Assembly: GCF_000719115.1 (NCBI RefSeq)
Contig: NZ_JOEA01000008.1
Span: 124,001-188,000 of the forward strand
Source: Lentzea albidocapillata
Lineage (GTDB): Bacteria > Actinomycetota > Actinomycetes > Mycobacteriales > Pseudonocardiaceae
DNA length: 64,000 bases
Direction: 5' to 3'
Shown piece by piece: positions 25,021 to 61,797 of the stretch. Position numbers and translations under genes: made by a program. Under the pieces are notes generated by a model. The model saw only the letters and a program-made list of their open reading frames with translations. It did no database searches and was not told the origin of the DNA. How positions within the stretch are numbered: position 1 is the first letter of the stretch; every line of letters begins with the position of its first letter.

Positions 25021-25025
25021 CCGGG

Positions 25026-34539: not shown

Positions 34540-34542
34540 TGG

Positions 34543-34941
34543 TCAGCCTTTCGGTTCGTCAGCTCGACGCAGTACGCCCGAGCGCCAGATGTGCACGTGC
34601 TCGCGTGGGGTGGGACGGAATTCCAGGTACAGGAACGCCGACGGGTGGACGACGCCCAGCGCGGCGGCGACCTGTTCGGCGAACGCGGCGCGGAACTCCT
34701 CGTCCCGGTCGGTTCCGACGCACGCCACGACCGAGGCGAAGCGGAGGCCGTCGGCGTCCTTGGCGACCGCCTCGACCGGCATCCCGCCGGTGAAGACGGT
34801 GCCGGGCCGGTGGTCGGTGAAGTGCACCACGACGTGTGCCGGTTCGACGCCGCGGTCGCGGAGCCAGCGGGTCAGGCCGAGGGCCACCGCGCGGCGCCTG
34901 GGCACGGGCAGGGGATCACAGGTGATGGTGATGGTGGGCAT
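34543..34941 (-). CDS. Fused tautomerase-superfamily protein (4-OT/MIF fold)
   Basis: 132 residues starting Met-Pro, so removal of Met would leave the catalytic N-terminal Pro1 of tautomerases. Two beta-alpha-beta units are visible: 2-55 (TITITCDPLPVPRRR...) and about 68-120 (ASVVACVGTDRDEEFRAAFAEQV...FLYLEFRPTPR). It has MIF/cis-CaaD-like length. Substrate is unknown; a keto-enol or double-bond shift on an aromatic-derived intermediate would fit. The carrier protein gene follows after 3 bases. Confidence 0.75.
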   Translation of the reverse strand: MPTITITCDPLPVPRRRAVALGLTRWLRDRGVEPAHVVVHFTDHRPGTVFTGGMPVEAVAKDADGLRFASVVACVGTDRDEEFRAAFAEQVAAALGVVHPSAFLYLEFRPTPREHVHIWRSGVLRRADEPKG

Positions 34942-34955
34942 GGTCCTTGGGCGGA

Positions 34956-37933: not shown

Positions 37934-38083
37934 AAAGATCCCCAGATCCCCACTGTTCCCCAAACAGATACGCCCGCGCATTGCCGAGCACGGCGCAGAA
38001 CGTAACAGCAGCGGCAACGCGCTAAAGCAGATCACGCTAAATGTGACCCAGAGCACACCGCTGCGCCGAATGGCCTATACCAA

Positions 38084-39685: not shown

Positions 39686-39959
39686 GGTGCTCCCCCGGTG
39701 ACATTCGATGCGCGAGACCGTCTGCTCGCCTATCAAAACGCGCCCAGGCTACGACACGGCCCGCCGCCGGGAACCCGTTCCGCGAAAACATCGATGGCGA
39801 ACAGATCCGGCGAATCCGCCGGGCCTGTTTCGCGGTGAATCAACGCCAGTTCTCCGAAGCTTCTCCAGATCGGCGCGGCAGCGTCCACAATGGACCGAGA
39901 ACGAAGATGGCCTGCCGGAGCTGTTCATGGGGGTCATCGGGCAATTCAGAGGCAGCGTC

Positions 39960-44870: not shown

Positions 44871-44883
44871 GTCATGAGCAGCC

Positions 44884-45807
44884 CTAGCCCCACCATCGAC
44901 GACGCCGCCGCACTTCGACATACCGGACGGGGATCTCCGATGGCTTCAGCGGACGGTCGACGACGGGGCGATGGTTCGCAGGGGTGATCCGTTCTTCCTC
45001 GTGCACGCTCGCGATCACGTTGGCGAAGTTGCTGTGCCCGTTCTCGCGCAGCTGGTCGACCAGCCGTGTGACGAGCAGGTCCAAGCGGCGCACTTCCGCT
45101 TCCGCCGCGCCCAGCCGTTCCTGCATGGTCACAGCACGATGACCGCACCAGGAGCGCAGCAGTTCGTGCAGTGGGCGTCTGCGTTCGAGGTACCAGCTGT
45201 ACTCCCACTCCGGATCCGAGGTCCGCTCCTCGCCTCGATGATTGGTGTAGGTCTCGCCGCGTCTAGTCTTCTCGCGGTACTCGCGCTCGTCCTCCAACAC
45301 GAAGTCCAGCACCGGTGTGGGATTGACCTGACACGCGAACTCTGCGATCAAGAGGCTTCCCTCTGGTGACACCACGTCGTGCCCGTCGGAGTTGGTCAGT
45401 GACTCAACCCGATCGACAAGCTGCGCGACCGGGACACCGATCAGCGGTTCGAGCTTCGCCGGATCGATGATCTCGGCCGTCCGATCGGACCAGTCAAGAT
45501 TGGCGATCTCTTCTGCGATCAACATCTCGAAGATGTATTCCGCAGCTGACCCTTCGGTCTCGGTCAGCTCGAACCCACAGACGCGTTGCCAGTTCGCCAT
45601 CATCTCGTCGTACCGACGCACATCGGACCACGGCCCGCGCAGGCGCCGTTGTGGAACGTTCGCCTTCTTCTCAGCGGTTTCGCCGTCCAGAAACTCGACC
45701 TCGTACCGCGGGTTCCGCTTGGACGTGTCGATGGCGACGACGCGCACGCGCTGCGAGGGGTCGTGATCGCGTTGCCGATAGATCTGCTCGTCACCGATCT
45801 GGATCAT
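44884..45807 (-). CDS. Hypothetical protein at the end of the defence operon
   Basis: 307 residues. Not recognised. An N-terminal small beta-rich region (RVRVVAIDTSKRNPRYEVEFLDGETAEKKANVPQRRLRGPW, partly quoted) looks like an SH3/Tudor-like fold, and a mostly helical remainder ends in a basic tail (RYVEVRRRRRWWG). It lies 67 bases after the AIPR gene on the same strand and may be its last co-transcribed gene. No nuclease motif is visible. Confidence 0.6.
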   Translation of the reverse strand: MIQIGDEQIYRQRDHDPSQRVRVVAIDTSKRNPRYEVEFLDGETAEKKANVPQRRLRGPWSDVRRYDEMMANWQRVCGFELTETEGSAAEYIFEMLIAEEIANLDWSDRTAEIIDPAKLEPLIGVPVAQLVDRVESLTNSDGHDVVSPEGSLLIAEFACQVNPTPVLDFVLEDEREYREKTRRGETYTNHRGEERTSDPEWEYSWYLERRRPLHELLRSWCGHRAVTMQERLGAAEAEVRRLDLLVTRLVDQLRENGHSNFANVIASVHEEERITPANHRPVVDRPLKPSEIPVRYVEVRRRRRWWG

Positions 45808-45874: not shown

Positions 45875-47620
45875 CTATCCAGCAAGTACATCGGCCGGCG
45901 CGATCCAACCGACTGCACGCACGCGGTCCCAACATGCTGGTTTCTTCGCCCACTCGGTGACGTTTCCGCCACTCGGCGGCGACGTCAGGACGCCGCGCAC
46001 TATTCGGGCGACATCAGGTACCACTGTCGCGATCGCCTCTGGCAGGGCCTGCTCACGCCAGATACGGTCGAGGTCCAGTCCGCCGACAGCATGCACGATC
46101 AGGGACACGACGTAGGCTGCGGTTTGTCCGAGGTAGCCTCCGAAGTTCTCCTTCTGGATCAGCGATCGCGTCTGCCGGAACACGATCGCCTTCGAGACGA
46201 GGTGGCGGAAGTACGCGTCATCAGGTGCCTCCCGCTCGGCGAGTTCGGCCTCGAGAGTCCACGTCCGGAAGCACTTTTCCGCGCCCTGGCATACGACGTC
46301 CGGTCGTTCGTTGTAGGCGTACTCGTACTTCGCTGCGTCCGTCTTACCAAAGCGTTGCCGCACGGGGTTCTCGCGGTCGAACCGTCGCCGTGACGCCGTG
46401 GTCGTGAACTTGTTCTTGTCCACGTCGTACTGCCCGCGGACCCGTTCATAGTACCAACGGGTCTGCACGAGCTCGTCGCCGGATGGTGTCAGCCAGATAC
46501 TGCGAGAGGAACGCTCCAGACCGACGTGGAACCGGCTGTTGCCCTCAAAGTCAGCAGCAGTAACAGCGTTCTGCGAGTTCGCATAGCGGGAGATCTCCGG
46601 AACCATGTGGTCAAGACGGTCATCCGGAATCAACGTGATCTTCGCGGGGACTGTCACCTGGGACAGGTCGAGCCCTCTGCGCGCAGCATTGTGCAGCGAA
46701 GCCGTGGTCTGGCCGCCATTAACGATCTGGAGCTCTGTCAGGCCTCGCAGGAGCAGCCCGTCCGGTGTCCGCTCGATCTCCGCAGCTCGAGCCGTAGCCG
46801 AGACGCCGTTGTTGTAGGCCAGGAAACGGCCTGGCTGGCTCTTGATCGTTGCCGCTATGCCCTTGTTGACCTTGCCACGCGCCTGCAGGAAGGCTCGCAC
46901 GTTGCGCTGGAGCAGGCGGCTGTGGTGCTCGTCGTACAGATCTGCAAGAAGCTTTCCGGGGAGCATGGTGAGAAGGCAGCGGTAACCATCTGCCTGTTCG
47001 GAAGACTCGAGGCACTGCACCTCGTAGCCCAGCTTCGCGATGTCGATGAGGATGTCCTCCTGCTGGGCGCCGGAGCTGATCAGTCGATGCAGTCGGGTGG
47101 CATCCCACACATGCACGGCTGTTGGAAGCCCCGCAACAGTTGCTTCCTCGGCACGCCGCAGCCCAGTCGTCCCATCGGTGAAGACGAAAATCCGGATCGT
47201 GTGCAGATCCGGCCACGCGGTGTGGATCCGTTGGACCATGTCGTAGGTCGGGCTTGATCGCTCAAGCTGTTCGTGCATGCCGTTCCGGCAGAACTCGGCG
47301 AAGGCACCCACGCGTCGGACCAACTGAGTCAGTCGCTCGCGTTTCAACGGCTCGGCTCCCAGCCCATACTCGGTTGTTACGAGCTGGAGGATTGTTCCGT
47401 CGCCAGCGATGTCGTAGCCAGCGACTTCGACACGCCGGTTCTGCCACGGCACAAACAGGTAGCAGGTTTCGAGGTCGTCGAGCACACCGTCGTCGATCAG
47501 GTACTCGCCGACGATGCTCACAAACGCGTCCCGCACCATCAGCTCGGGCTCGGCGTCGACACGGTCCTCGATTCGGCGCTGCAACTCGGCGGTGAAGTTG
47601 ACCAGTTCGCCGTCCGTCAC
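45875..47620 (-). CDS. AIPR-family protein (abortive-infection type phage resistance)
   Basis: 581 residues. The core LLQRNVRAFLQARGKVNKGI, then AYNNGVSATA, then LQIVNGGQTTASLHNA (about 245-330) is the AIPR signature (PF10592). A C-terminal helical region follows. The family is linked to abortive infection and is often found with restriction-modification genes; its biochemical activity is not established. Start GTG overlaps the stop of the sigma-fusion gene (GTGA), so it is co-translated with the defence operon. Confidence 0.85.
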   Translation of the reverse strand: MTDGELVNFTAELQRRIEDRVDAEPELMVRDAFVSIVGEYLIDDGVLDDLETCYLFVPWQNRRVEVAGYDIAGDGTILQLVTTEYGLGAEPLKRERLTQLVRRVGAFAEFCRNGMHEQLERSSPTYDMVQRIHTAWPDLHTIRIFVFTDGTTGLRRAEEATVAGLPTAVHVWDATRLHRLISSGAQQEDILIDIAKLGYEVQCLESSEQADGYRCLLTMLPGKLLADLYDEHHSRLLQRNVRAFLQARGKVNKGIAATIKSQPGRFLAYNNGVSATARAAEIERTPDGLLLRGLTELQIVNGGQTTASLHNAARRGLDLSQVTVPAKITLIPDDRLDHMVPEISRYANSQNAVTAADFEGNSRFHVGLERSSRSIWLTPSGDELVQTRWYYERVRGQYDVDKNKFTTTASRRRFDRENPVRQRFGKTDAAKYEYAYNERPDVVCQGAEKCFRTWTLEAELAEREAPDDAYFRHLVSKAIVFRQTRSLIQKENFGGYLGQTAAYVVSLIVHAVGGLDLDRIWREQALPEAIATVVPDVARIVRGVLTSPPSGGNVTEWAKKPACWDRVRAVGWIAPADVLAG

Positions 47621-50600
47621 GTCGCTACTCCAGTTTGGTGTCGTTCGATCACGAGGGCAGACTTGTTACGTGCAATCCGGGCGAGGGCAGTCAGCCGTGG
47701 CCGCAGGGGTTCCGGGGGTATGAGGTGTGCACCAGGCTCCGTACCGCCCCATGCACCAAGTTGGTCAACAGGCAACTCCACGAGCACGCGGGCGAGCGAG
47801 GTCTCAGTCGACATGTCAAGGCCGTCGAGCCCGAGCCACCCACCACACGACAGGTAGCGATCCTCACAGCGCACGTAGAATCCTTGGGCGCGCTGCCACT
47901 CGGAAGGATCACCGACGGAGTGAGAGTCACTGGTCCGAAGAGCGTTCGGATGTGGAAGAACACGCGGGCTCACCACTATCGAAAGTCCCTCGGCAGCAAC
48001 GTGTTCCTCGCCGAGATGTTGCCCGGCCGGGTTGTTCCAGAGGAACGGGTCCTGCGCGGTCACGTCGATGCCGTTGACATCGATGCTTGTAACAGGCAGC
48101 AAATCTCCGAAAACGACTCCAAGTTCACGGATGCAGCGGTCCAAGATTGCAGCCACGCTCGCTCGCGCCACCTGTGGGCGTGGAGCCCGGAACAGGACGG
48201 TCGTCCATGCGCCGGCCTCATCGTCAGCGATCAGACCCGAAGGCGGGTTCTTGCGCGCACGATGCAACCACCATGTGTCCGTACCCGACGCCGAGGTCAG
48301 AATCCGGCAGTCCGGAGCGGTGCGGGAGTTCCAGCTCGTAATTTCGTCGTAGAGCGAAGCCGCGATACCGAGGGCCGTTGAGGCGTGGGTGGATGGACCG
48401 CCGCCGCATAGCACTTGCTGCAACACGGGTTCGACGAACGGCTCGCCGTCGTGGAGAAACGCCAGTCTGGCGGTTGTGTTGGTGCCTGCCGTTCGGATCC
48501 GGATCTTGTGAGCACCGGATCGCATTGCCTGATCCACTAGTGCAGCCAGCATCTTCATGACGCTGCTTTCGTCGCTCGTGGCGCCGAGGCGGTCAACCAA
48601 CCCCAGACCGGTCGCAAGTTCATCACCGAACAGCCGCTTTTTCGGCAGGGACCTGCGTATCGGAGCAGGTGCCTGCGGGGGCGTGGCGTACACAGAAACA
48701 CTCGGCTCTGCGTCGTCCGCGACGATCCCTACCTCGGCAAGCTTGGTGACCAGGTTTTTCTTGGCCTTGCCCTCGACCTGGCGGGCCCTCTCGCGGGTGA
48801 AGGAGAAGTGTTCGCCGATCTTCTCCAGCGTGAGGTCATCCTCGCCGTCAAAGCCGAACCGTAGCTCAAGGACCTTGGCCTCGCGTTCCTTGAGCGACGA
48901 CACCGCCTTCCGTACGAGCTCCGCCCCAACTGCTCGGTCCACCACGTAGTCCGGGTTGGCGTCGTGCTCGAACGGAATTGGCACCAGTTCGGCAAAGGTG
49001 ATCTCGCCGTCGGCACCGAGCGGCGCATCGATGCTGATAACACCGGCTGCGAGACGCAGACATTTCACAACCTGCTCCGGCGACAACTCGGCGCGCCTGG
49101 CTATCTGGGCTATCGAGCAGTCGTCGTTCTCGCGCTGCAGCTTGCTTCGGATTGCCTGAACCTTGCGAACGATCTCGTACATGTGGACGGGCAACCGGAT
49201 GGTCGCACCCTCGTCGGCAACGGCACGGCTCATTGCCTGGTTGATCCAGTTGATGGCGTACGTCGAGAACTTGAGTCCGCGGGAACCGTCCCACTTCTCA
49301 ATGGCCCGCATGAGACCGAGTACCCCGTGTTGCTGCAGGTCCTCGAAATCGAGGCCAGCACCGAGGTACCTGCTGACACTCGATCCGACAAGGCCCATGT
49401 TGTGCATCACCATGACGTCGAAGGCCCGCGCCCGTTCGTCGTCATCGCGGACTGTCGAGCGGAATCCTCGCGGCAGTTCGTCCACTAGGCCGACGCCGAC
49501 GGAACGCATCAGCAGGGCAAGTCCGACTTCCTCGATCGCCGTCATGACCCGCTTGGCCCGGGCATTGCTCGTCAGCTTCGTCCCGATCAGGCTGCGGGCA
49601 GCCGACACCGCTTCGTCATTGGCCGCCGGAGGAGCAGGCTCAATTTCCGCCAGATCGTCAACAGGTACACGAGCTGCTGGCAGGGTCAGATCCGGCCACT
49701 CACGATCCGTGCGGTCCTGCACACGGTTGTCCACAAGGTCAGCCGGCAAGCCGCGCAGCGCCGTCGGCCGACCCGCCCCCGAATAGGAGAGAACCAGTTC
49801 GACCTGGGCGGTTGAGCCGAGGACCTGCAGAACGTTCTCAGAGCGTTCCTGGCTTGCAAGGGTGTCGAGGGCTGCCAGTACGACGTGGTCGAACCGCATT
49901 CCTATGGCACTTGCCCATGTGAGCACCTTGATGCCGGGATCGGACGCCGTCACCCAGGCATGGCGTGGGACGACGTGGTTGGACAGGTACCACTGGGTTA
50001 CACCGTCGAAGAGATCCTCGATCCCGGTTCTGAACACCTGGACGAGTTCCTGCGTCGGCAGGAGAACCCCGATCTGTGCCTCACGGTGGTTCGTCGCGTG
50101 GTCCACGATGAACCGGATCTCCTCATCGACATCGTCGTGTCCAACCAGCAACGGTCGAGGGCCGTTCCGACACGGCGCGTTGATGTGAAAGTGTCCTTCG
50201 AAGTGCCCCAGAAACTCACGGATCTGCCTGGTGCCGTCGCTGCTGTCTCGCAGCATCGTTGGTGTTTGTGCGCCAAGAACAGTGACCAGTTCGTCGAGCG
50301 GCGTGCCCGACTCGTCAACCGGCTGCACGGGATCGATGAACACGGTCGCTGCGACACCAAGCAGCCGGAGCACCGCATAGAACTCGGTCGGCAACTGTTG
50401 GCCATGGACAACGACAACGTGCCGTCGGTCGAGTGGCCGAACGTAGCGAGCCCTGAGGCGTTGGCGAAACTCCCACAGATCCACGTTGTGGTCGTCGACC
50501 TTCTGAACGGGAACGCGCAGTGCGGCGCGCCACGTGTCGCTGCAGTACGCAGCGAAGGTCATCACGGTGTCTCCGCGGCTCTCGAACGGCATCAGGCCGC

Positions 50601-50772
50601 GGATGCGGTGGTTCAGCACGCTCGATCTGGTGATGACGTGCAGTTCCTTGCCATGACCACGCAGGCGGCGATACGCAGCAGCTGCCTCGGCGGCCTGATC
50701 AATTCCGGGCGGGGCAACCAGAACTTCGTAACTGGCTGCTTCGTGAACAGGCGCGCGGAGCGCGGCGCTCAC
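47617..50772 (-). CDS. Fusion of degenerate SF1 helicase, RpoD-like sigma-70 and degenerate GHKL ATPase
   Basis: 1051 residues in one uninterrupted frame. Residues 1-385: SF1 (UvrD-like) helicase fold. The position of Walker A reads VAPPGIDQA and of Walker B VVVVHGQQLP, both dead, while later motifs remain (INAPCRN; IKVLTWASAIGMRFDHVVL; VELVLSYSGAGRP). Residues 445-535: sigma region 2 (LDFEDLQQHGVLGLMRAIEKWD, FSTYAINWINQAM, IRLPVHMYE); 540-605 region 3; 622-675 region 4 (LKEREAKVLELRFGFDG...TRERARQVEGKA). Residues 725-1051: MutL/Hsp90-type GHKL (LVDQAMRSGAHKIRI; ALGIAASLYDEITSW) with the catalytic Glu and Asn changed to Ala and Gln. GTG overlaps the DrmB-like stop (GTGA). I know of no such described protein. 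Confidence 0.85.
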   Translation of the reverse strand: MSAALRAPVHEAASYEVLVAPPGIDQAAEAAAAYRRLRGHGKELHVITRSSVLNHRIRGLMPFESRGDTVMTFAAYCSDTWRAALRVPVQKVDDHNVDLWEFRQRLRARYVRPLDRRHVVVVHGQQLPTEFYAVLRLLGVAATVFIDPVQPVDESGTPLDELVTVLGAQTPTMLRDSSDGTRQIREFLGHFEGHFHINAPCRNGPRPLLVGHDDVDEEIRFIVDHATNHREAQIGVLLPTQELVQVFRTGIEDLFDGVTQWYLSNHVVPRHAWVTASDPGIKVLTWASAIGMRFDHVVLAALDTLASQERSENVLQVLGSTAQVELVLSYSGAGRPTALRGLPADLVDNRVQDRTDREWPDLTLPAARVPVDDLAEIEPAPPAANDEAVSAARSLIGTKLTSNARAKRVMTAIEEVGLALLMRSVGVGLVDELPRGFRSTVRDDDERARAFDVMVMHNMGLVGSSVSRYLGAGLDFEDLQQHGVLGLMRAIEKWDGSRGLKFSTYAINWINQAMSRAVADEGATIRLPVHMYEIVRKVQAIRSKLQRENDDCSIAQIARRAELSPEQVVKCLRLAAGVISIDAPLGADGEITFAELVPIPFEHDANPDYVVDRAVGAELVRKAVSSLKEREAKVLELRFGFDGEDDLTLEKIGEHFSFTRERARQVEGKAKKNLVTKLAEVGIVADDAEPSVSVYATPPQAPAPIRRSLPKKRLFGDELATGLGLVDRLGATSDESSVMKMLAALVDQAMRSGAHKIRIRTAGTNTTARLAFLHDGEPFVEPVLQQVLCGGGPSTHASTALGIAASLYDEITSWNSRTAPDCRILTSASGTDTWWLHRARKNPPSGLIADDEAGAWTTVLFRAPRPQVARASVAAILDRCIRELGVVFGDLLPVTSIDVNGIDVTAQDPFLWNNPAGQHLGEEHVAAEGLSIVVSPRVLPHPNALRTSDSHSVGDPSEWQRAQGFYVRCEDRYLSCGGWLGLDGLDMSTETSLARVLVELPVDQLGAWGGTEPGAHLIPPEPLRPRLTALARIARNKSALVIERHQTGVAT

Positions 50773-52553
50773 ACCACACCTCCGGGTACTCCTCCGATGG
50801 CGGTCACAAGATCTGCAAAGAACCCGAACTCAGGATCGACAAGCAGTCCTCGATCCAGCTGCCTGTTCGTCACCTCGCAACTGGTCTCGGGTACCAACGA
50901 GCACGCATGACACGCGGCCAGAGACAGACCGTCCGGCCCCTGACCAGGATGCTCTCCGCACACTGGATCGAACGAGCACCACTGCGCCGATGTCACTGAC
51001 ATGTCAAGCAGCCGCCCCAACCGCGGGAATTCCCCCATGCGAACAAGACCGCCCAGCGTTCCCTCGGAGTCACCGGCCGCGGTGTAGATCAGTACGCCGG
51101 CCATGGCAGGCGAATTGGTCTCGTCAGTCACGTAAAGGCGCTCACGCAGCGAGGACGTCGAGTAACCCGCCTCGAACGCGGTATTGCGAAGCAGGAGATG
51201 CGCGAACGTGTGGAGCAGTACATGCCGTGGCGTCGGCTTCGGGAGCCACGCGGCTCCCTTTCTCTCATGCCGTTCCAACAGTTTCCGGCACCGTTCAACC
51301 ACAGGATCGCGTTGTTCCCACTCAGTGAGGGCACTCTCGTCGAACCTCAGGAAGAATCCCTCACCGAACACTTCGATGGCTGGCAGGAAGTCGGCATCCA
51401 CGCTCAGGTTCGACTTCACCTTCTGCTGCATCGTGTGGCGCTCGAAGTGTGTGAGCACGCGAACCTCGCGCAGGCGGTCCACCAGCACAACATCAGCGAT
51501 CACCTGACTCCACAGGCTCTCGGTGGAGGGGTTACCCCGCATCGAGCGGCTGGCGCGCCGGGTGATGAACAGATCGCGCGGGTGGTGTTCCTCAACCTGG
51601 GGGTTGATCAGCGCCGACCATTCGTCTGGCCGAATGTTCTCGGGTCCTCCGTCAGCCGGCACAAGCGGGTCCGTCGTCTCATGCGCCAGCGCGGCCTCCA
51701 CTTCGGACCTGGCGAGTCCGTACTGTGCTGCAGCAAGGTCGATCATCTGACTGGCCAGCGCATATCCCGGATCAGTGACCAGGAACTTGAACTCCTTGCT
51801 TCGGCGCAGTGCGTTCAGCGGATCGCTGACCATGCGCCAAGCGGACTCCGGCGGGATGTCGATCGCACTTTCGACGTGCGGGAAGTACACGCTGGAAGCT
51901 CCCCGCTGCATGGCCACCACCGGCTCGGAGCAGTTCTGCGCGTCGGAGTTGTCCTGCCACGGCTGTCTGCCCGTACAGCGCACGCCAATCTGCCTCAGGC
52001 CGATTCTGGTCGTGAGCCCGTCCAGGGATCGTTCTCCACTGCATGTCTCACAACGCACGACCAGTGAGTTCAGTCCGCCGCCGACCTTGGATCTGTTCAG
52101 GAACCTCAGGTCGGGTCGCTCACACTGGAACTGGTTGCGGCCACGGCGCATCCCGCTGTGTGCCCACTTTCCCCAGTCGACATCGGCCAAGTGCCCGTCG
52201 CCGCACACGGCGACAAACCGCATCGGTACAAGTTGTTTACTGCCAGGGCATTGCTCACACGCCGGCGCGATGTTGGCGATCTCCTTCTTGTACGACCACC
52301 GGTACATACGTCGGCAGGATCCGCAGAAGAGCCACTGGGGAAACCTGTAGTAGGGAATCGGCCGGCGCGGCGACGGCGCGGCAAGTGAATCGATCTTCAG
52401 GTACGACGCCAGTCTCGGGAAGTCAACAGGTACGAGGGGGCGTCGCCACTTTCCGGCGTCCTCGACCACGAATGACTCGCCCACGAGATCGATGATCGCG
52501 CCCGGACCGAACGGACTGATGATCTGTGCACGTCGTACCTTGCGGGCGGTCAT
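50769..52553 (-). CDS. drmB: DrmB-like DUF1998 protein of a DISARM-type system
   Basis: 594 residues. N-terminal AQIISPFGPGAIIDLVGESFV, then paired Cys of zinc ribbons (CGSCRRMYRW, CEQCPG, CETCSG), MRFVAVCGDGHLADVDW, and the C-terminal DUF1998 region with LLHTFAHLLLRNTAFEAGYS, LIYTAAGDSEGTLGGL and a last Cys cluster (CSFDPVCGEHPG...CHACSL). Order and motifs match DrmB, the partner of the DrmA helicase in DISARM phage defence. Starts inside the helicase gene (ATGA overlap). Known role: with DrmA it loads on phage DNA; here inferred by homology and pairing. Confidence 0.85.
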   Translation of the reverse strand: MTARKVRRAQIISPFGPGAIIDLVGESFVVEDAGKWRRPLVPVDFPRLASYLKIDSLAAPSPRRPIPYYRFPQWLFCGSCRRMYRWSYKKEIANIAPACEQCPGSKQLVPMRFVAVCGDGHLADVDWGKWAHSGMRRGRNQFQCERPDLRFLNRSKVGGGLNSLVVRCETCSGERSLDGLTTRIGLRQIGVRCTGRQPWQDNSDAQNCSEPVVAMQRGASSVYFPHVESAIDIPPESAWRMVSDPLNALRRSKEFKFLVTDPGYALASQMIDLAAAQYGLARSEVEAALAHETTDPLVPADGGPENIRPDEWSALINPQVEEHHPRDLFITRRASRSMRGNPSTESLWSQVIADVVLVDRLREVRVLTHFERHTMQQKVKSNLSVDADFLPAIEVFGEGFFLRFDESALTEWEQRDPVVERCRKLLERHERKGAAWLPKPTPRHVLLHTFAHLLLRNTAFEAGYSTSSLRERLYVTDETNSPAMAGVLIYTAAGDSEGTLGGLVRMGEFPRLGRLLDMSVTSAQWCSFDPVCGEHPGQGPDGLSLAACHACSLVPETSCEVTNRQLDRGLLVDPEFGFFADLVTAIGGVPGGVV

Positions 52554-55500
52554 CTCCGGGTTCCCCTCACCTGCACCTCGATCTCGACGTCGACGCTGCG
52601 CATCGAGTCGAGCGTCGCCCAGCCGTCTCCTCGTTCGGTGAACCGCTTCAGCAACCTCGGTCGCTCGTGGCCGAAGTTGCTGTAACGAAGGCCTCCCAAG
52701 GCCTGTGAGTCGATCGCCCGCTTCGACCACGTCTCGATCAGGTCATCGAGGTGAACCTGTACGCGCGCGAGCTCGGTGGCATCCGCCTGCTCCACCCTCG
52801 CGAGAAACAACTCCAGCAGGGCTGTCAGGCGCTTGTCGTCCGGATCGAACAGGGCTGCGTCCTGGTTCTCGGTCAGGCCGAGGGCATGACGGACCAGGAT
52901 GACAAGATCAGCGTGCAGCGCGCGTTCCCGCGCTGGTACCGAGAACGGCGTCACCGAACTCGGTTCCACAGAGCGGTAAAGACTTGCGTGGTAGGGGACA
53001 AACGACTCGTAGTGCGAGCGGTCGCGCGGCTTGGACGGTGAGTAGACCGTCACAACGAGACCTGGCCTGTCAGCCTTTCGGCCTACGCGGCTGGTTGCCT
53101 GGATGTACTCGGCAGTCGTCTTGGGCTGACCAACCACGGTCATGAGCCCAAGACGACCAACGTCAACACCGACGGAGATCATGTTGGTGCTGGCCAGAAA
53201 GGCCACACCCTCAACGTCGTCGTGTGGCCTCTTCAACCGTTCGAGTCGTTTCGGAATCTGGATGGAAGCGACGTTGCTCGTCAGCTCAACGACATTGTCA
53301 TCATCGATGTGTCTGATCTCGTCCTCAGCCCGCGCGATCACCTTCAGACGCGAGGGGATGTCATCCGAGGCGAGGTTGATCGTCTTACCGAGCTCGCGAA
53401 GACTGTTGTGGTAGACGACGAGTGTCGAGTAGGCATCGGCAACCTGGGCCGACAGCTCGATCTCGAGCGGAGCCTGGAGCTGCGCGGCGGCGACGTGGAT
53501 GAGCGCCGTAAGGGGCGTGTGCCCCTGAGGCATGATCCCTGCGTATGCGCGTCCGGGCCGCATATCGTCGGTCCGGACGAAGTACGAGTCGGCGGCGTTG
53601 ACTCCTGCGGGAGGAAACAGCGCGACCTCGCGTCCGAACACACCCTGTGCCTGCTCGTCCGCGCGGCGGATGGTGGCAGTCGCGGCGACGATCTTCGGCC
53701 TGTGTCCAAGGTGCTGCATCAGAACGTCGAAGGCGGCCTCGTAGAGCCCGACGATGGTGCCGAGCGGACCGGAGATCAGGTGGAACTCGTCCTGGATGAT
53801 CAGAGACGGTCCGGGGTCGTGGCCCGCGCCGAAGAACGCTCCGGTGTCCTTGTTCCACACGGCCCGAGCAAACTTGTCGACCGTGCCGACGAGCATCGTG
53901 GGCGGGTTCTCGTAGAGATCCTCGTCCACGGACGACATGGGCAGCCCGGTGCGGAACCGACACTTCTCGTTCAGGCACCTGACCCGGAACGAGCTGTTGG
54001 TTACCGAGATGCCCCACAGCTGTTCGTCCTCAGGACCGTTCGGCACGATCCTGGTCCCACACCACGGGCACGCCTCGATCTGGAAGCCCTGGTCCTCCAC
54101 CACACCCTCGCGCGCACGGGCCAACAGTTTGCGCGCATCGGAGTACGTGTTGGGACTGTTGTTGGCGCCGACCCAGATCCCTATCGACACCGGTCGGCTG
54201 CCCAGCGCCCCGTTGGCCTGGTCACGCAGCACCTCGCAGGCCGCGATCATGGTGGCCGCGCGCTGGAACTGCTGGGTTGTGAGCAACCTCAGCGTGTACC
54301 TCGTAATGACCGTGGTGCCGGCTCCCTCGTCGCGACGGGTCAGCCGTCGGTGCAGGATCGTGAACGCGGCGAGCCCAAGGTATGCCTCTGTCTTGCCACC
54401 TCCGGTGGGGAACCAGATCAGGTCAACAAGATCGCGGTCCTCACCTTCCTGCACAACGCCCTTCACTGCCAGGAGAAGGAATCCGAGCTGGAACGGCCGC
54501 CACGTGGGGTCAAGCGACTCGTAGTCCACCGTTGGATCCGGTGCCTGGGAGAGCGGATGCGGCGAACCGCCGAGGTCCTCAAGGCTGTGCGCCATCTGCA
54601 TGGCCATCGCACGGTTCGCCAGTCCGAACGCCCTACGTGCGTCTGGATCGTCGCGGAGGAACTCGACCCCTGCAAGCATGCGGTCCCGCGCGTTCTCGGC
54701 CCGATCCTGAAGCCGCTGTACCGCAGGAAGAAGTCGCGGCGGGAGGTTCTCCGACACAGCTTCCCATGTCGATGCAATCCAGTCCGTGTATCTGCCGACG
54801 AACCTGGTCAGGAAACCAACAGTTTCCTCTGTGGTGGACTCGATTTCGGCCAGCCGGTTCAACCGGACGGCATCCGCCACGTCCGGCACGTCGAATGCAA
54901 CATCTGGAACGACATGCACGGGAAGAAAGGACGTGCTGACCCAGTCTGGGCGTTCAGTGGTGATGTCCCAGCAGGCCGCTGCCCCGTGTCCCACCGCATA
55001 AACCGGTACGTCGCGGTATAGGAGTTCGAGTTCCTCTGCCTCTTCATCGCTGTGGGTGTGAACCTGCGTCGGATAGCGGGTGATACCGCCATCTGTCACC
55101 GAGCAACGCAGCCCGACCTGGAACAGACAGTCCTCAGGCTGTACCGGACGGCCTTTTTCCTGCTTCCTGCGGTTGACCAGAACGACGGTGACTATGAGCC
55201 CGCCGGGATGCTGACGCCAGGTCACCTCCAAGGTGGCTGCGTCGTCCCAAAGGGGAACGCTTCGGTGCGTTCCGCCAGATTCCGGCGGAACGCACCGAAC
55301 CGCATCGGTTCCGTTGAGGTCGAGAGAGTGACGCTGCCACTCGTCCTCGGCGACGTTCAGATAGCGAGCCGCGTGGACGTCGACGAGTAGCGTCGACCGG
55401 CTCGTGGTCATGAAGCTGATGCCTGCTGAGCTTGGGCGGTTCTGGCCGGCCAGTGTTATGGGGTCCTCGTCGTTGTCCTCCGGGAGTGCCCCTGCCCTGT

Positions 55501-55711
55501 CATCGATCTCCTCGTCGTCCTCGACGGGACTTCCCGCATCGGCTGCCGCCACATCGAGGGATGTCGGGTAAAGGATGGCCGTCAGATATCGGTGTTGTGG
55601 AGCCTTCTCGTACAGGACTTCGCTGTCACCGTCGACTGGACCCACAAGTTGGTCGTGAAGGTAGCCCAGCATCCGGTCCCGGTCGGGGAATCGGGTGGCA
55701 TCCGGTTCCAT
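52550..55711 (-). CDS. drmA: DrmA-like SF2 helicase of a DISARM-type system
   Basis: 1053 residues. A long N-terminal region (1-420) precedes the helicase: Walker A WFPTGGGKTEAYLGLAAF (Lys440), RYTLRLLTTQQFQRAATM, IWVGANNSPN, paired Cys (CPWCGTR...CLNEKCRF), a DEFH box (IIQDEFHLISG), and helicase C motifs (STNMISVGVDVGRLG; EYIQATSRVGRKA). This is the wording of DrmA. It is third-position GC-rich but less so than the region to the left, in line with transfer. The start (TGATG) shares a base with the stop of the NERD-helicase gene. It presumably works with the DrmB-like protein encoded next. Confidence 0.87.
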   Translation of the reverse strand: MEPDATRFPDRDRMLGYLHDQLVGPVDGDSEVLYEKAPQHRYLTAILYPTSLDVAAADAGSPVEDDEEIDDRAGALPEDNDEDPITLAGQNRPSSAGISFMTTSRSTLLVDVHAARYLNVAEDEWQRHSLDLNGTDAVRCVPPESGGTHRSVPLWDDAATLEVTWRQHPGGLIVTVVLVNRRKQEKGRPVQPEDCLFQVGLRCSVTDGGITRYPTQVHTHSDEEAEELELLYRDVPVYAVGHGAAACWDITTERPDWVSTSFLPVHVVPDVAFDVPDVADAVRLNRLAEIESTTEETVGFLTRFVGRYTDWIASTWEAVSENLPPRLLPAVQRLQDRAENARDRMLAGVEFLRDDPDARRAFGLANRAMAMQMAHSLEDLGGSPHPLSQAPDPTVDYESLDPTWRPFQLGFLLLAVKGVVQEGEDRDLVDLIWFPTGGGKTEAYLGLAAFTILHRRLTRRDEGAGTTVITRYTLRLLTTQQFQRAATMIAACEVLRDQANGALGSRPVSIGIWVGANNSPNTYSDARKLLARAREGVVEDQGFQIEACPWCGTRIVPNGPEDEQLWGISVTNSSFRVRCLNEKCRFRTGLPMSSVDEDLYENPPTMLVGTVDKFARAVWNKDTGAFFGAGHDPGPSLIIQDEFHLISGPLGTIVGLYEAAFDVLMQHLGHRPKIVAATATIRRADEQAQGVFGREVALFPPAGVNAADSYFVRTDDMRPGRAYAGIMPQGHTPLTALIHVAAAQLQAPLEIELSAQVADAYSTLVVYHNSLRELGKTINLASDDIPSRLKVIARAEDEIRHIDDDNVVELTSNVASIQIPKRLERLKRPHDDVEGVAFLASTNMISVGVDVGRLGLMTVVGQPKTTAEYIQATSRVGRKADRPGLVVTVYSPSKPRDRSHYESFVPYHASLYRSVEPSSVTPFSVPARERALHADLVILVRHALGLTENQDAALFDPDDKRLTALLELFLARVEQADATELARVQVHLDDLIETWSKRAIDSQALGGLRYSNFGHERPRLLKRFTERGDGWATLDSMRSVDVEIEVQVRGTRR

Positions 55712-57285
55712 CACCGTCCCGCTTCCTGATCGGCAGGCTTCACGATCCACAGCGCAGCCTTGGCCCTGGTCATGCCGACGTACAGCTGAGCTCGCGCCGT
55801 CTGTTCGTCCGTGTCCTCGTCCGTTTCCAGAACGACGTACCGACTTTCCAAGCCCTTGAAGTCGGCTACCTTGGCAAAACCGACGCGTCCGCGGCCCGGC
55901 TTGCGCATACGCATGAGGTCGAGCGCGTCCACACGCTGGCGCCACGGGGCAGGCAGCTCGACGAAGACGGAATTCGCCATGTCGTGTGGCGACAGCAGTA
56001 CCACCTGCTCCAGCGGCACGTCGTGTTCTTCGAGTTCCGCCAGGACTGCGGCCACGGCAACAGCGGCTTCCGAGCGGTGCGCATCAATCACGACGACCTC
56101 GCGACCATGCCCCGCCGTCGTTACACCGAGGTCGGCGCCAGTCCGATCACGCGTGGCTTCAACGATCTCGGTCGTGTTCCTGCAGTTGTCCATCAGGTCC
56201 ACAACGGCCGGTCGCTGCGCCTGCAGCGTGGCCATCGCGGTTTCCTCATACCGGCCAACCAGTCCACGTTGGTTGTTGGAGTCCAAGAGGAAGGACCAAC
56301 GTCCGTCGGCGAGACCCCCGCATAGCGCGGCCTCGATGACCTTGAGGTCCTGCTCGTTGACGATGTCCTGCGCCTCGTCCACGACGACCATGTCGAAGGC
56401 GTCGACGTCGAAGGTCGGCACCTGGTCGAACGCGACCACGGTGATGTCGTCGAGGTCGGGCTGCGCACGGATGAAACTCGCAAGGATGTCACTGCGGCAC
56501 GTAAGCAGGACACGATCACCGGAACTCCGTGCGCGTCGGCACATCTCTACCGCGAGCATCGTCTTGCCCGTGCCTGCGCCACCTTCGAAGATCAGTCGGG
56601 GATTCCGACGGTGGTGGTCAAGAGCCCTGTACTGACGCGTCGTAAGAGCGACCAGTTCCTTCTCGACGAGGTCGTCAAGTCGCCGCAACGACAACACACG
56701 ATCGAAGTCCGGACGCAGGGCGCTGAGGTACTGCTCGACTTCCTCCGAGGAAAGCTGGCTTCGCCCGTTGGACCTGCCCTCCCAGAAGGTACCCAGCTTG
56801 TCGAGGCAGGCCGCCCAGCCCTCCGCCCGAAGCCGGGCAGCGTCGATCACCATCTCCGGACGCCACTCGACGCTGACTGCGTTGAAGTCGCAGTCCGGAA
56901 AGACGACGCCGTACCCGAACACCGTGCGACGCACCAGTTCGGGCCCGACATCGCGTCGCAGAACGTTCTCCAGAGCGAACATGCTCGATCTTGCCTGCTC
57001 GAGCGGGCTCTCCTTCAGCCGGTGCCTGGTTCCACGAAGATCCTGGGTGTGCCAGACGCCGTTCCTGCGGGAGATGCCACCGCCCTTGGCCTCCAGCACC
57101 AGCAGACCGCGCGGCCCCAACAGCAGGAAGTCGATCTCACACACACGTTTGCGTTCGTGTTCGGGCAGGTTGAGGCTGTGCAGGGCGTATTGCCAGCCGT
57201 CGGCTTCAAGTTCGGACAGCTGAGCAAAGATGTCCTTCTCGGCACGGCTGGGGTTGGAACCTATCCGGTTCGGGATCATCCTCAT
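55711..57285 (-). CDS. NERD-domain SF1 helicase
   Basis: 524 residues. N-terminal NERD nuclease-related domain (about 12-130): RKRVCEIDFLLLGPRGLLVLEAKGGG holds the D...ExK catalytic pattern. The SF1 helicase follows: Walker A FEGGAGTGKTM (Lys241), Walker B MVVVDEAQDIV (Asp303-Glu304), motif III FLLDSNNQ, motif IV VDLMDNCRN, motif V VADFKGLESRYVVL, motif VI ARAQLYVGMTRAKAAL. The helicase part is similar in plan to the inactive N-terminal part of the sigma fusion two genes on, but here all ATPase residues are intact. First gene of the operon. Confidence 0.88.
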   Translation of the reverse strand: MRMIPNRIGSNPSRAEKDIFAQLSELEADGWQYALHSLNLPEHERKRVCEIDFLLLGPRGLLVLEAKGGGISRRNGVWHTQDLRGTRHRLKESPLEQARSSMFALENVLRRDVGPELVRRTVFGYGVVFPDCDFNAVSVEWRPEMVIDAARLRAEGWAACLDKLGTFWEGRSNGRSQLSSEEVEQYLSALRPDFDRVLSLRRLDDLVEKELVALTTRQYRALDHHRRNPRLIFEGGAGTGKTMLAVEMCRRARSSGDRVLLTCRSDILASFIRAQPDLDDITVVAFDQVPTFDVDAFDMVVVDEAQDIVNEQDLKVIEAALCGGLADGRWSFLLDSNNQRGLVGRYEETAMATLQAQRPAVVDLMDNCRNTTEIVEATRDRTGADLGVTTAGHGREVVVIDAHRSEAAVAVAAVLAELEEHDVPLEQVVLLSPHDMANSVFVELPAPWRQRVDALDLMRMRKPGRGRVGFAKVADFKGLESRYVVLETDEDTDEQTARAQLYVGMTRAKAALWIVKPADQEAGR

Positions 57286-57991: not shown

Positions 57992-59878
57992 GTGTCCTAC
58001 TACGGGGTCAAGCTGCAGCGCAGCGACGATCTGCAACTAGCCAGCCACCCCGATGGCTGTACCGAGGACACCTTCGACGAATGGTGCTCACAGAGGCTCG
58101 CAAACAACCAGAAGCTGGCCGTCGACCTGTTCTCGGGCGCGGGTGGCCTGAGTCTTGGTCTGGAAGAGGCCGGCTGGACAGTCGCGGTCTCTGTCGACAA
58201 CGACAACAAGGCGCTGCAGACCCATCGCCACAACTTCCCGGGGTTGGCGCTTGCCCGCGACCTTGGCGACGAAACCCAGCGCCAGGAGCTCGTCAGCCTT
58301 CTCCGTCGTACGACAGTAGACCTGATTGCGGGTGGACCACCCTGTCAGCCATTCAGCCGGGCAGGCCGAAGCAAGATCCGCAGCCTTGTGGTGGCCGGAC
58401 ACCGCGACGAGCACGACCACCGACGCGAACTGTGGCAGGCGTTTCTTGACATCGCGTTGGCTGTACGTCCGCGGGCAGTGCTGATGGAGAACGTCCCCGA
58501 CATGGCGCTCGGCGACGACTTCGCCGTGGTTCGCACCATGGCCGACGAACTTGAGCGTGCGGGCTACTACACCGATCTACGACTCGTCGACGCGTGGCGA
58601 TATCGCGTTCCACAGCATCGCAAGCGCCTCATCCTGCTTGCGCGCCGCGACATCGAGGACTTCCCCTGGCCAGAGGAGCAGGAGGTACAGACGACGCTGT
58701 GGGATGCGATCGGCGACCTGCCCGACCTCAATGACACCACGGGCGCTCGTGTGCTGACCTATCGCAGGCCACGAAAGCTCCCATGGTTCGGCGACGCGAT
58801 GCGGGCTGGGGCTCCGGGTGGAGTGATCTGGGATCACATGACCCGTCCAGTGCGTGACGATGACCGCGAGATCTTCGATCTCATGGACTCGACCACCCTC
58901 TACGCGAACATCCCGGAGAAGTACCGGCGGTACAAGGTCGAAACCTTCGACGACAAGTACAAGAAGCTGGACTGGAAATCGGTAAGTCGGTCGATCACCG
59001 CACACATCGCCAAGGATGGGTACTGGTACATCCATCCAAAGCAACTGCGAACCCTCACCGTTCGGGAAGCCGCAAGGGTGCAGACCTTTCCTGATCGATT
59101 TCGTTTTGCCGGCACCCGTAGCGACGCGTTCCGGCAGATTGGTAACGCGGTACCCCCGATGCTTGGCCAAGCTGTGGCGACTGCGCTACGGCCGGTCAGC
59201 CAGGAGGAACACGAGAAGAATCCCCACGATGCTTCCTCACGCTGGGTCGCAGCGCGTAGCGCGCTGACCACATGGGCACGCCAGCAACGGCGTGGAAAAC
59301 AGTGGCACACGATGCCGGGCCCCGCAGTTACTCCTGCAGTAGCTGCGGTGGCAGCAGTTCTGACCAGCCGTGGCACGATGCCCAAAGGTACCGAGCAGGT
59401 CCTCGAAAGCATCCGAGGTAGGACACGACTGACAAAGGCCGAACTCGAAGCGCTGCAACAGCACCTCGCGACACCGCCAGGACGTCGCCAGCTTGAGCGT
59501 TTCCGGCCACTGCTCACCAAGCGCAAGGTCTGGACCGACCCCGATCTACTCGTCGAGCAACTGGACATGAAGCCTGCGGAAGAACAGACCTTCAGACTCC
59601 TAGCTGGTCAGGATGTCCTTCTCGCCACGCAAACCACGCTCCGGGTCGCAGCACGGGTTGTCGGCTCGGATTCGGACAGGACCAACCGGCTGAGTGACGG
59701 TCGCGTGGATCTTGCCAGGCTGATCGGAGCCGGAGAGGACGCCCCGCTCCGGGCGGCGGCACTCCGGCTGCTCGGCAGCACCGTCTGCAGAGCTCCCAGC
59801 ACACTCTGCGCAGCCTGCCCTCTCAGTCAGCAGTGCATTGGCGCGACAGCAGATCAGGCGACCGAGACGCTCTTCTAG
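57992..59878 (+). CDS. C5-cytosine DNA methyltransferase fused to an EndoIII-like [4Fe-4S] domain
   Basis: 628 residues. Methyltransferase part (1-400): motif I AVDLFSGAGGLSLG (43-56), motif IV GGPPCQPFSRAG (catalytic Cys118), motif VI ENV (166-168), motif VIII QHRKRLILLARR, motif X RQIGNAVPP. The C-terminal about 200 residues look like an HhH-GPD/EndoIII fold: ATQTTLRVAARVVG aligns with the catalytic loop where glycosylases have Asp (here Gln), and Cys599-x6-Cys606-x2-Cys609-x5-Cys615 is exactly the EndoIII cluster spacing. GTG start; GAAAGGG 9 bases upstream. In DISARM such an enzyme marks self DNA. It converges with vsr. Confidence 0.87.
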   Translation: MSYYGVKLQRSDDLQLASHPDGCTEDTFDEWCSQRLANNQKLAVDLFSGAGGLSLGLEEAGWTVAVSVDNDNKALQTHRHNFPGLALARDLGDETQRQELVSLLRRTTVDLIAGGPPCQPFSRAGRSKIRSLVVAGHRDEHDHRRELWQAFLDIALAVRPRAVLMENVPDMALGDDFAVVRTMADELERAGYYTDLRLVDAWRYRVPQHRKRLILLARRDIEDFPWPEEQEVQTTLWDAIGDLPDLNDTTGARVLTYRRPRKLPWFGDAMRAGAPGGVIWDHMTRPVRDDDREIFDLMDSTTLYANIPEKYRRYKVETFDDKYKKLDWKSVSRSITAHIAKDGYWYIHPKQLRTLTVREAARVQTFPDRFRFAGTRSDAFRQIGNAVPPMLGQAVATALRPVSQEEHEKNPHDASSRWVAARSALTTWARQQRRGKQWHTMPGPAVTPAVAAVAAVLTSRGTMPKGTEQVLESIRGRTRLTKAELEALQQHLATPPGRRQLERFRPLLTKRKVWTDPDLLVEQLDMKPAEEQTFRLLAGQDVLLATQTTLRVAARVVGSDSDRTNRLSDGRVDLARLIGAGEDAPLRAAALRLLGSTVCRAPSTLCAACPLSQQCIGATADQATETLF

Positions 59879-60303
59879 TCTGCTGCTCCGCGTGACGTCT
59901 CAGCCCAGATCCGTTGGGCAGCGCCGACCGCATCTCGACGGATCTCACATTCCCAGACTCGAACTACGTGCCAACCAGCGTCGGCAGCAGACTGGTTGTT
60001 GCGCAGGTCGCGCTCACGGTTCGTGTTGATCTTCTTGGCCCATTGATCTGCGTTCGGCCCGCGAAATCTTGCAGGTGTATGGGCCGGACAGCCGTGCCAG
60101 AAGCATCCGTCCACGAAGACGGCCAAGCGATGACGCGGGAGGATGAAGTCTGGTGTGCATCGTGGCGCTACCTGCTGGTGAATCCTGTACCGCAGGCCAA
60201 GGGCGTGCACCGCACAACGTAACGCGAGCTCCGGCTTCGTGTTGCGGGTGGGTCGGCCTCGCAGATGCTGCCCCTCCGCTGTCGCGATCCATCGATCGGA
60301 CAC
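59875..60303 (-). CDS. vsr: Very short patch repair endonuclease Vsr
   Basis: 142 residues from GTG 60303 (GGGAGG 4-5 bases upstream; ATG 60333 is an alternative). Vsr hallmarks: RGRPTRNTKPELALRCAVH, TPDFILPRHRLAVFVDGCFWHGCP (catalytic Asp and Zn-binding residues), NTNRERD and GWHVVRVWECEI. It nicks T:G mismatches that arise when 5-methylcytosine deaminates. It overlaps the end of the C5-methyltransferase tail to tail by 4 bases, the expected partner; the repair site is likely the methyltransferase's target. Confidence 0.93.
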   Translation of the reverse strand: MSDRWIATAEGQHLRGRPTRNTKPELALRCAVHALGLRYRIHQQVAPRCTPDFILPRHRLAVFVDGCFWHGCPAHTPARFRGPNADQWAKKINTNRERDLRNNQSAADAGWHVVRVWECEIRRDAVGAAQRIWAETSRGAAD

Positions 60304-60482
60304 TGGGCCTCCCACCTCGTCAAAGGACAACATCCTCCAGGCTGGAGGCGAATGTCCACGTACTCTGCCGAACGCACGAACGAGCAAGACGTTGACTCGT
60401 TGCGTCAGCCACGGCTGACCGACCGAGAGGCTGGCATAGCGCCCAGACTGCACGGTGCTCGCAAGTGACAGCTGCGACCTGA

Positions 60483-60520
60483 GCACAGGACGGACTGCCT
60501 ATAGGCAGTCCGTCCTGTGC
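60483..60520 (-). terminator. Intrinsic-type hairpin after the DUF397 gene
   Basis: GCACAGGACGGACTGCC (60483-60499), TATA loop, GGCAGTCCGTCCTGTGC (60504-60520): a perfect 17-bp stem, 5 bases past the DUF397 stop on the minus strand. No T-run follows, so efficiency is uncertain. Confidence 0.7.
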
Positions 60521-60525
60521 GATCG

Positions 60526-60723
60526 CTACTGCCGACCTGCCTTGTCTCGCAGGTCGTTGATGAAGCTGCAGAACGCGGTGCGCTGGAACCGCAGCGGCTC
60601 CGCGTCCGGGTTCTTGGAGTCGCGGACGCCGACGTCGTCAGTACTCACGGCGAGTTCCACGCACTCGTTGCCGGCTCCTCCCGAGTAGCTGCTCTTGCGC
60701 CACATGGAGTTGCTGCTGCTCAT
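60526..60723 (-). CDS. DUF397 family protein
   Basis: 65 residues with the DUF397 signature MWRKSSYSGGAGNECVELAV, GVRDSKNP and F-xx-FIND-LR at the C-terminus. These small proteins are paired with XRE/DUF5753 regulators in actinomycetes and often act as their antagonists or partners (as in BldB/WhiJ-like pairs). The start overlaps the stop of the XRE gene (ATGA). Confidence 0.9.
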   Translation of the reverse strand: MSSSNSMWRKSSYSGGAGNECVELAVSTDDVGVRDSKNPDAEPLRFQRTAFCSFINDLRDKAGRQ

Positions 60724-61574
60724 TGTCTGCCGAGCGCCCCTATCTGTCGGCCGATGCGCGCTGCCGTCTCGGTGGGCGACAACGCGACCAGGCTCACGTC
60801 GTCGAACATGGTGGTGAAGCGGACTACGTCAGCCTCATTGTCCACCCACGCGCCTCCGGCCGGGTATTCCAGGTAAACGCCCGGCGGATCGGCCGGACTC
60901 GGGAAGCTGATGATCGTGCACGGCCCGGACATGCTGCCGTAGGCACCGGCGGTCTTCGGGATGATCTGCAAGATGACGTTTGCTCGTGCGCCCACGGTCA
61001 GCAGGCGGTGAAGCTGTTCCTCCATCACGTCCGGACCACCGACCTCGCGCTCGATGACCGCCTCGTCGATCAGCGCGTGCAGCTGCAGTTCGCCGTTCTC
61101 CAGCCGTTTCTGCCGGTTGAGGCGTGTGGTGACGTGGCTGTCGAGCCGCACATCCTGCTTGTAGAACCGGTGAGCGGCCGCCTCGATGGCACGGGCATAG
61201 GACTTCACCTGGATCAGGCCGGGCACGGCCAGCGACTGAACGGTGCGCACCTTGTCGGCTTCGAGCTCGGCGCGGACGAACGTGCGGAACGCCTTGGTCG
61301 AGCCTGCAGGCAGGCGCACGCGCGGAGGTTCATCGCTCGCGTTCTCCCACAGCCGGGCTGCGGTGTCGCGATCCTCGTCGCTGGCGTCGTAGGACGCGCA
61401 CAAGGCGGCGACGCTCGCCCAGTTCGGCAGCACGTGTCCTGACTCGTACCGGCTGATGGTGCTGTCTGACGTCTTGAGTTCCTTTGCCGTCTGCGCGAGA
61501 GATCTGCCAGCGCTGTCTCGCAATCGCGCGAGGTGATCGCCGAGACGCTTCTTCGCCCGAGTTGGTGCTGCCAT
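60720..61574 (-). CDS. XRE-family regulator with DUF5753 domain
   Basis: 284 residues from ATG 61574. N-terminal helix-turn-helix (about 10-70: LGDHLARLRDSAGRSLAQTAKELKTSDSTISRYESG) and a C-terminal DUF5753 domain (AVPGLIQVKSYARAIEAAAHR; ALIDEAVIEREVGG; MEEQLHRLLTVGARANVILQIIP; CTIISFPSPADPPGVYLEYPAGGAWVD). Forms a unit with the DUF397 gene. The sense of regulation and target are unknown; a second such regulator begins at 63269. Confidence 0.92.
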   Translation of the reverse strand: MAAPTRAKKRLGDHLARLRDSAGRSLAQTAKELKTSDSTISRYESGHVLPNWASVAALCASYDASDEDRDTAARLWENASDEPPRVRLPAGSTKAFRTFVRAELEADKVRTVQSLAVPGLIQVKSYARAIEAAAHRFYKQDVRLDSHVTTRLNRQKRLENGELQLHALIDEAVIEREVGGPDVMEEQLHRLLTVGARANVILQIIPKTAGAYGSMSGPCTIISFPSPADPPGVYLEYPAGGAWVDNEADVVRFTTMFDDVSLVALSPTETAARIGRQIGALGRQ

Positions 61575-61797
61575 GCAGGCGAGACTAGCGCTGCACGCTC
61601 CCATGCAACAGCTCTCCAGCGACCCGATTGGGCGATAGAAGTCGTGCTATTGCACGGTATATGTTGCATGGGTCGACGGGACTGCTGGCCTCGATGGCCG
61701 GGCCGTCACGTGGTGGTGAAGCGCCCCTGCAGTCCCGTCGGCCCAGCAGAAGTGCCCGCTACGGGCACCCGGGCTCGACGGAAGGGGTGTCGGGGCG

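Follow-up and report, generated by a model that had tools for sequence, protein, structure and literature searches.

A primary-type sigma factor fused to two ATPase folds without their catalytic residues in a conserved, predicted defence operon of actinobacteria

Why should a predicted anti-phage operon carry a primary-type sigma factor of its own, and what could such a factor do when it is joined in one polypeptide to an SF1-like and a GHKL-like fold, both stripped of their catalytic residues? The question is raised by a gene of Lentzea albidocapillata that lies within 64,000 nucleotides of contig NZ_JOEA01000008.1 (assembly GCF_000719115.1, positions 124,001 to 188,000), hereafter the window, between genes for DrmB-like and AIPR proteins. 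The answer favoured here, tentatively, is that the 1051-amino-acid product acts as an adaptor that reads promoters on behalf of the DrmAB/NERD/AIPR machinery encoded around it. The gene and its parts, in window coordinates, are:

47617..50772, minus strand: fusion of 1051 amino acids, SF1-like / sigma-70 / GHKL-like; GTG start at 50772, GTGA overlap with DrmB
49693..50748, minus strand: SF1 part, residues 9-360, UvrD-type fold without the Walker A and Walker B residues
48733..49560, minus strand: sigma part, residues 405-680, primary-type sigma-70 with regions 1.2, 2, 3 and 4
48772..48798, minus strand: -35-reading helix TRERARQVE, residues 659-667
47635..48627, minus strand: GHKL part, residues 716-1046, MzaB/MutL-type domain and a transducer-like part after it, catalytic residues lost

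The sigma part and its two flanking folds

The initial annotation had read the protein as an SF1 helicase, a sigma-70 factor and a GHKL ATPase, and this reading holds, with a UvrD fold, regions 1.2, 2, 3 and 4, and an MzaB/MutL-type match; the SF1 and GHKL folds of the flanks are confirmed. The catalytic losses it described extend through the whole family, represented here by an alignment of 32 rows. In the SF1 part, structural matching recovers a UvrD-type fold lacking the Walker A lysine and the Walker B Asp-Glu; the lysine occurs in none of the 26 rows that have residues there, and at Walker B 28 of 31 rows have QG or HG, two have NG and one has DG. In the GHKL part, the Mg-binding Asn is replaced and the last Gly of DxGxG is lost in every row, and the catalytic acid remains E in six. 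Both folds are catalytically silenced family-wide. Mean pairwise identity within the family reaches 73% in sigma2, 67% in sigma1.2, 66% in sigma4 and 61% in GHKL-C, and is lower in SF1 (53%), sigma3 (52%), GHKL-N (47%) and the linkers (31%). The idea that the SF1 part arose by duplication from the NERD-SF1 helicase of this operon was considered and rejected, the profile comparison giving only a weak match in the Walker A region (E 0.018, probability 2.6) and BLASTP of the SF1 part against that helicase giving none.

The promoter-reading surfaces of the sigma part, namely the -35 helix and the greater part of regions 2.3/2.4, are retained. RpoD-like regions 2, 3 and 4 are present in 32 of 32 rows, and R660, E661, R662, R664, Q665 and E667 of the -35 helix are invariant in all of them. 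Positions invariant in 19 housekeeping sigmas served as the reference for 15 fusion-family sequences, 21 fusions of reversed domain order (GHKL-sigma fusions) and 16 sequences resembling MzaA, the sigma factor of the MZA system. The fusion family keeps 88% of these positions in region 4.2, 81% in regions 2.3/2.4, 60% in regions 2.1/2.2, which form the main core contact of sigma, and 49% in the region 3.2 finger; the corresponding values are 92%, 93%, 90% and 65% for the GHKL-sigma fusions and 96%, 89%, 79% and 36% for the MzaA-like proteins.

Two replacements stand out. Residue 482, in the helix that contacts the polymerase core, is never E in the fusion family (H in 28 rows, N in two, Y in two); it is E in 21 of 21 GHKL-sigma fusions, in 18 of 18 MzaA-like proteins sampled and in the divergent own sigma L004. 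The melting dyad begins with W508, which only 5 of 32 rows retain, the position being W in L004 and in all 39 sampled GHKL-sigma and MzaA-like proteins; the second tryptophan of the dyad is kept in all 32 rows. We take residue 482 to be the equivalent of E. coli E407, and W508 that of W433. Mutations of E407 weaken the binding of sigma to core. Region 1.1, the part that prevents free sigma from binding DNA, has no match among the Pfam hits of the fusion, and the SF1 domain occupies its place.

With its melting dyad altered, a sigma of primary type could give rise to a dead-end holoenzyme, and this is the attraction of a reading in which, on infection, the fusion occupies or poisons RNA polymerase and halts transcription as an abortive effector. 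Such a sink would require an abundant protein and tight core binding, whereas all 32 rows carry a substitution at a core-contact residue, and AIPR, judged by name only, is the likelier abortive component; we consider this explanation improbable. More generally, of the mechanisms first proposed (switching RNA polymerase to defence genes, sensing its takeover, sequestering it), none is proved by sequence; core-contact and melting residues are replaced, and those that read promoters are kept.

The operon, its conservation and a possible mechanism

The remaining genes of the cluster are:

55711..57285, minus strand: NERD nuclease and SF1 helicase, 524 amino acids, first gene of the operon; GTGKT Walker A, DEAQ and NERD EAK motifs all found
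52550..55711, minus strand: DrmA-like SF2 (YprA-family) helicase; motifs GGGKT, DEFH and QATSRVGR found
50769..52553, minus strand: DrmB-like protein (MrfA Zn-binding domain); ATG at 52553, ATGA overlap
45875..47620, minus strand: AIPR protein, MzaE-like, 581 amino acids; GTG at 47620, GTGA overlap with the fusion gene
57992..59878, plus strand: C5-cytosine methyltransferase, MTase_II/DrmMII-like, upstream of the operon and divergent from it
59875..60486, minus strand: Vsr-type very short patch endonuclease, upstream of the operon, probably the partner of the methyltransferase
60720..61604, minus strand: helix-turn-helix and DUF5753 regulator, whose membership of the system is uncertain

The genes for NERD-SF1, DrmA, DrmB, the fusion and AIPR abut on the minus strand with the junctions TGATG, ATGA, GTGA and GTGA, where the ATG of DrmA at 55711 shares one nucleotide with the stop codon of NERD-SF1. 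The GTGA overlaps on both sides of the fusion gene confirm the translational coupling to its DrmB-like and AIPR neighbours that had been proposed. Motor motifs are kept in both DrmA and NERD-SF1 of the window.

The fusion was searched for in samples of 390 genomes of the family, 397 of the order and 396 of the phylum, which yielded 12 other loci in the family sample, two in the order sample besides the window's own, and none in the phylum sample. The three-domain fusion stands beside drmA and drmB in 12 of 12 other loci, an arrangement for which the initial annotation had proposed to search. An assembly or frame-joining error is ruled out by these loci together with a codon-position guanine-plus-cytosine (GC) content that is steady along the fusion gene. 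All 12 loci were read, and each has the order NERD-SF1, DrmA, DrmB, fusion, AIPR and methyltransferase (in L111 NERD-SF1 is cut off by the end of the retrieved stretch); the window differs in that its methyltransferase does not follow AIPR but lies divergently upstream. Directly beyond AIPR in the window, at 43506-45807, where other loci have the methyltransferase, are two genes (454 amino acids, plus strand; 307 amino acids, minus strand) with no match in Pfam or PADLOC. An RTGA overlap joins DrmB to the fusion in 11 of the 12 loci, L142 having TGATG instead, and the fusion to AIPR in 11 of 12, the frame in L138 extending slightly further. Identity between the window and the other loci is 59-74% for NERD-SF1, 62-77% for DrmA, 54-78% for DrmB and 61-83% for AIPR, and within the fusion 34-64% for the SF1 part, 47-74% for the sigma part and 33-63% for the GHKL part. 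The operon is a fixed, conserved unit in some actinobacteria, and it probably moves between families, because two close relatives (83-87%) carry the name Nocardia.

A block around TGTAAC-ATGTCACCCGAA, about 100-150 nucleotides before the NERD-SF1 gene, is common to L110, L137-L141 and L143-L145; the window keeps only parts of it. The similarity upstream of the NERD-SF1 start in 9 of 11 other loci aligned, together with the complete regions 2, 3 and 4 and the invariant -35 helix, would suit a working alternative sigma that directs RNA polymerase to the operon's promoter or to other defence genes, with the dead ATPase folds as anti-sigma-like regulatory parts. The residues replaced in the core-contact and melting surfaces stand on the other side, and this explanation appears unlikely.

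The preferred explanation, that the fusion is a promoter-reading adaptor, proposes that the sigma part reads promoter DNA and so brings the DrmA-DrmB helicase and the NERD nuclease-helicase to invading DNA. Because no region 1.1 is recognised and the core-binding face is altered, the sigma part would differ from an ordinary sigma and may bind promoter DNA alone or in a weak complex with RNA polymerase. Binding platforms would be provided by the two dead folds, SF1 and GHKL, the latter presumably for the kind of partner served by MzaB in MZA. DrmA-DrmB would be loaded at the promoters read by the sigma part, and the C5-methyltransferase would mark self. Cutting would fall to the NERD helicase, with AIPR as a further effector that may be abortive. 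A phage that relies on the RNA polymerase of its host cannot do without host-type promoters, and promoters would thus be a pattern hard to lose. In favour of this explanation stand the fixed gene order with its overlaps, the family-wide catalytic loss beside the intact motor motifs of DrmA and NERD-SF1 in the window, the retained promoter-reading residues beside the replacements at 482 and 508, and the repeated capture of sigma by MzaB-type GHKL modules. According to PMC9142583, DrmAB binds DNA with a 7-nucleotide 5' overhang, and minimally DNA with shorter ones, and its ATPase activity is severely reduced on 5-methylcytosine DNA.

Several points weigh against this explanation. The sigma finger is poorly kept in the fusion family, but the MzaA-like proteins keep even less of it. 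Some MzaA-like members retain just 16-17 of 25 positions in regions 2.1/2.2, and N484, hydrophobic in 32 of 32 fusion-family rows, differs in 6 of 21 GHKL-sigma fusions as well, so that among the sampled proteins only the changes at E482 and W508 are specific to the family. The replacing residues are themselves conserved, which would fit an altered contact with RNA polymerase as well as a lost one. Group 2 sigmas normally do without region 1.1, the structure model of the fusion has a predicted template modelling score (pTM) of only 0.42, and host promoters would be read too, protection then resting on methylation. The anti-phage role of the cluster is predicted from homology, and the complex of the fusion with its neighbours is likewise hypothetical. 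Finally, every fusion-family row retains D478 and Q481 in the core-contact helix, so binding to the polymerase core may persist. The nearest rival is a sensor or loader tethered to RNA polymerase, in which the sigma part would sit on the host enzyme in competition with SigA, with a HelD-like SF1 domain on the same enzyme, and the complex would either detect takeover of the polymerase or place DrmAB on promoter bubbles that have opened; the changed core-contact residue and the structural likeness of the SF1 part to UvrD bear on the other side, and we judge this rival rather unlikely.

The adaptor reading can be carried one step further: a primary sigma with rewritten polymerase contacts could be an immune pattern-recognition receptor for phage promoters, from which the dead helicase and MutL folds hand DNA to DrmA-DrmB, the NERD nuclease-helicase and AIPR. 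In this full form the proposal is doubtful. Primary sigmas have been captured by GHKL defence modules at least twice, so that, if the proposal is true, the reading of promoters would be a strategy of general use in immunity.

The defence island, at about 41-62 kb of the window, has a third-codon-position GC of mostly 0.7-0.8, against mostly 0.85-0.95 before it, and this lower value suggests horizontal acquisition. Beside it, at 23665-39736 on the minus strand, lies a likely natural-product cluster with a Lys/Orn oxygenase, two AMP-binding proteins, FemAB-like, MFS and amidase proteins, a class-II DAHP synthase, a prenyltransferase/cyclase-like protein and an aromatic amino acid lyase.

Origin of the sigma part

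A tree was built from 74 sigma domains, three of 77 rows (P0031, P0225 and P0036) having been removed for length; the rows are samples hand-picked out of longer hit lists. The label MzaA-like follows gene context for P0143 alone and similarity for the other rows, and two such rows that fell among RpoD (P0219 and P0245) were excluded from the tests after inspection of the tree. Fusion-family sigmas come out as a single clade (100/100) whose stem is long (0.74). GHKL-sigma fusions form another (96/93), adjoining three Microbacteriaceae SigA (93/97), and MzaA-like sigmas group with RpoD of Nitrincola and of a myxobacterium (98/90). A single origin for all defence sigmas is rejected, MzaA-like and GHKL-sigma sequences failing as one clade in the approximately unbiased (AU) test (p 9e-6). 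The fusion family could be forced together with GHKL-sigma (p 0.24) or with MzaA-like sequences (p 0.17), neither arrangement being rejected. Because the joint clade of MzaA-like and GHKL-sigma sequences is rejected, MzaB-type GHKL modules acquired a primary sigma at least twice independently, as a neighbouring gene (L088) and as a fusion, which implies that sigma does something specific there.

The reverse fusions (P0041, P0047, P0054, P0057, P0065, P0114 and others) begin with an MzaB-type GHKL domain whose motifs are intact and continue into a primary sigma. They are mainly from Microbacteriaceae where named, and their sigma, which groups with Microbacteriaceae SigA, is an independent capture.

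Comparison with known systems

The initial annotation knew of no described system with this protein. MzaA, MzaB and MzaE of MZA are in fact known; the part that stands is that no description was found of a sigma-GHKL fusion with a dead SF1 domain, or of its pairing with DrmA-DrmB and NERD-SF1. The cluster resembles DISARM in having a DrmA-like helicase followed by DrmB and an MTase_II/DrmMII-type C5-methyltransferase, and it differs by the additional presence of NERD-SF1, the sigma fusion and AIPR. DrmA scores 887 bits on NF038325, just under the cutoff of 950, and 460 bits against the solved DrmA 7s9v; DrmB scores 422 bits on NF038324 (cutoff 240), and the methyltransferase at 57992-59878 scores 281 bits on MTase_II and 266 bits on DrmMII. 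DrmC (PLD), DrmD and DrmE are not recognised among the 15 window reading frames scanned with Pfam and PADLOC; DrmC is typical of DISARM and reported to be non-essential.

MZA (mzaABCDE), compared through one canonical locus on a Thalassospira plasmid (L088), shares a sigma-70 (MzaA), a MutL-type GHKL protein (MzaB), AIPR (MzaE) and a C5-methyltransferase nearby. Profiles exist in NCBIfam (NF041931 for MzaA, NF041932 for MzaB, NF041935 for MzaE), and PADLOC also has all three. Residues 447-674 of the fusion score 229 bits on NF041931, far under the cutoff of 800, and the N-terminal part of the MzaA profile is unmatched in the fusion. The GHKL fold and C-terminal motifs of MzaB are matched but its active site is not, as the loss of the Mg-binding Asn in 32 of 32 rows attests. 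The window's AIPR scores 350 bits on NF041935 over almost its full length (cutoff 1050), which marks it as a relative and not as the equivalog. PMC9523054, which cites Gao et al. 2020 for MZA, terms mzaA 'a sigma factor'. The GHKL-sigma fusions (P0041, P0054, P0065 and others) likewise combine an MzaB-type GHKL domain with a primary sigma in one polypeptide, but in reversed order and with GHKL motifs intact in those read.

Transcription-associated parallels are found elsewhere. HelD, as described in PMC11464796, is an SF1-like protein that works with RNA polymerase and touches sigmaA inside it; it differs from the fusion in binding and hydrolysing NTP and in reaching into the polymerase with its CO domain, and the SF1 part of the fusion is structurally closer to UvrD. 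A sigma-like helix-turn-helix is reported for BrxL of BREX in PMC12839542. The text of PMC12458937 contains no occurrence of AIPR, MutL or GHKL; the TALON system it describes differs from the present cluster in having a TATA-binding protein and TPR-CSD in place of sigma, an ARMADA-like YprA and a largely Chloroflexota distribution. TALON resembles the present cluster in coupling a YprA-family helicase and a NERD nuclease to a protein that binds promoters, and is thus a further case of an initiation factor within a defence operon of related kind.
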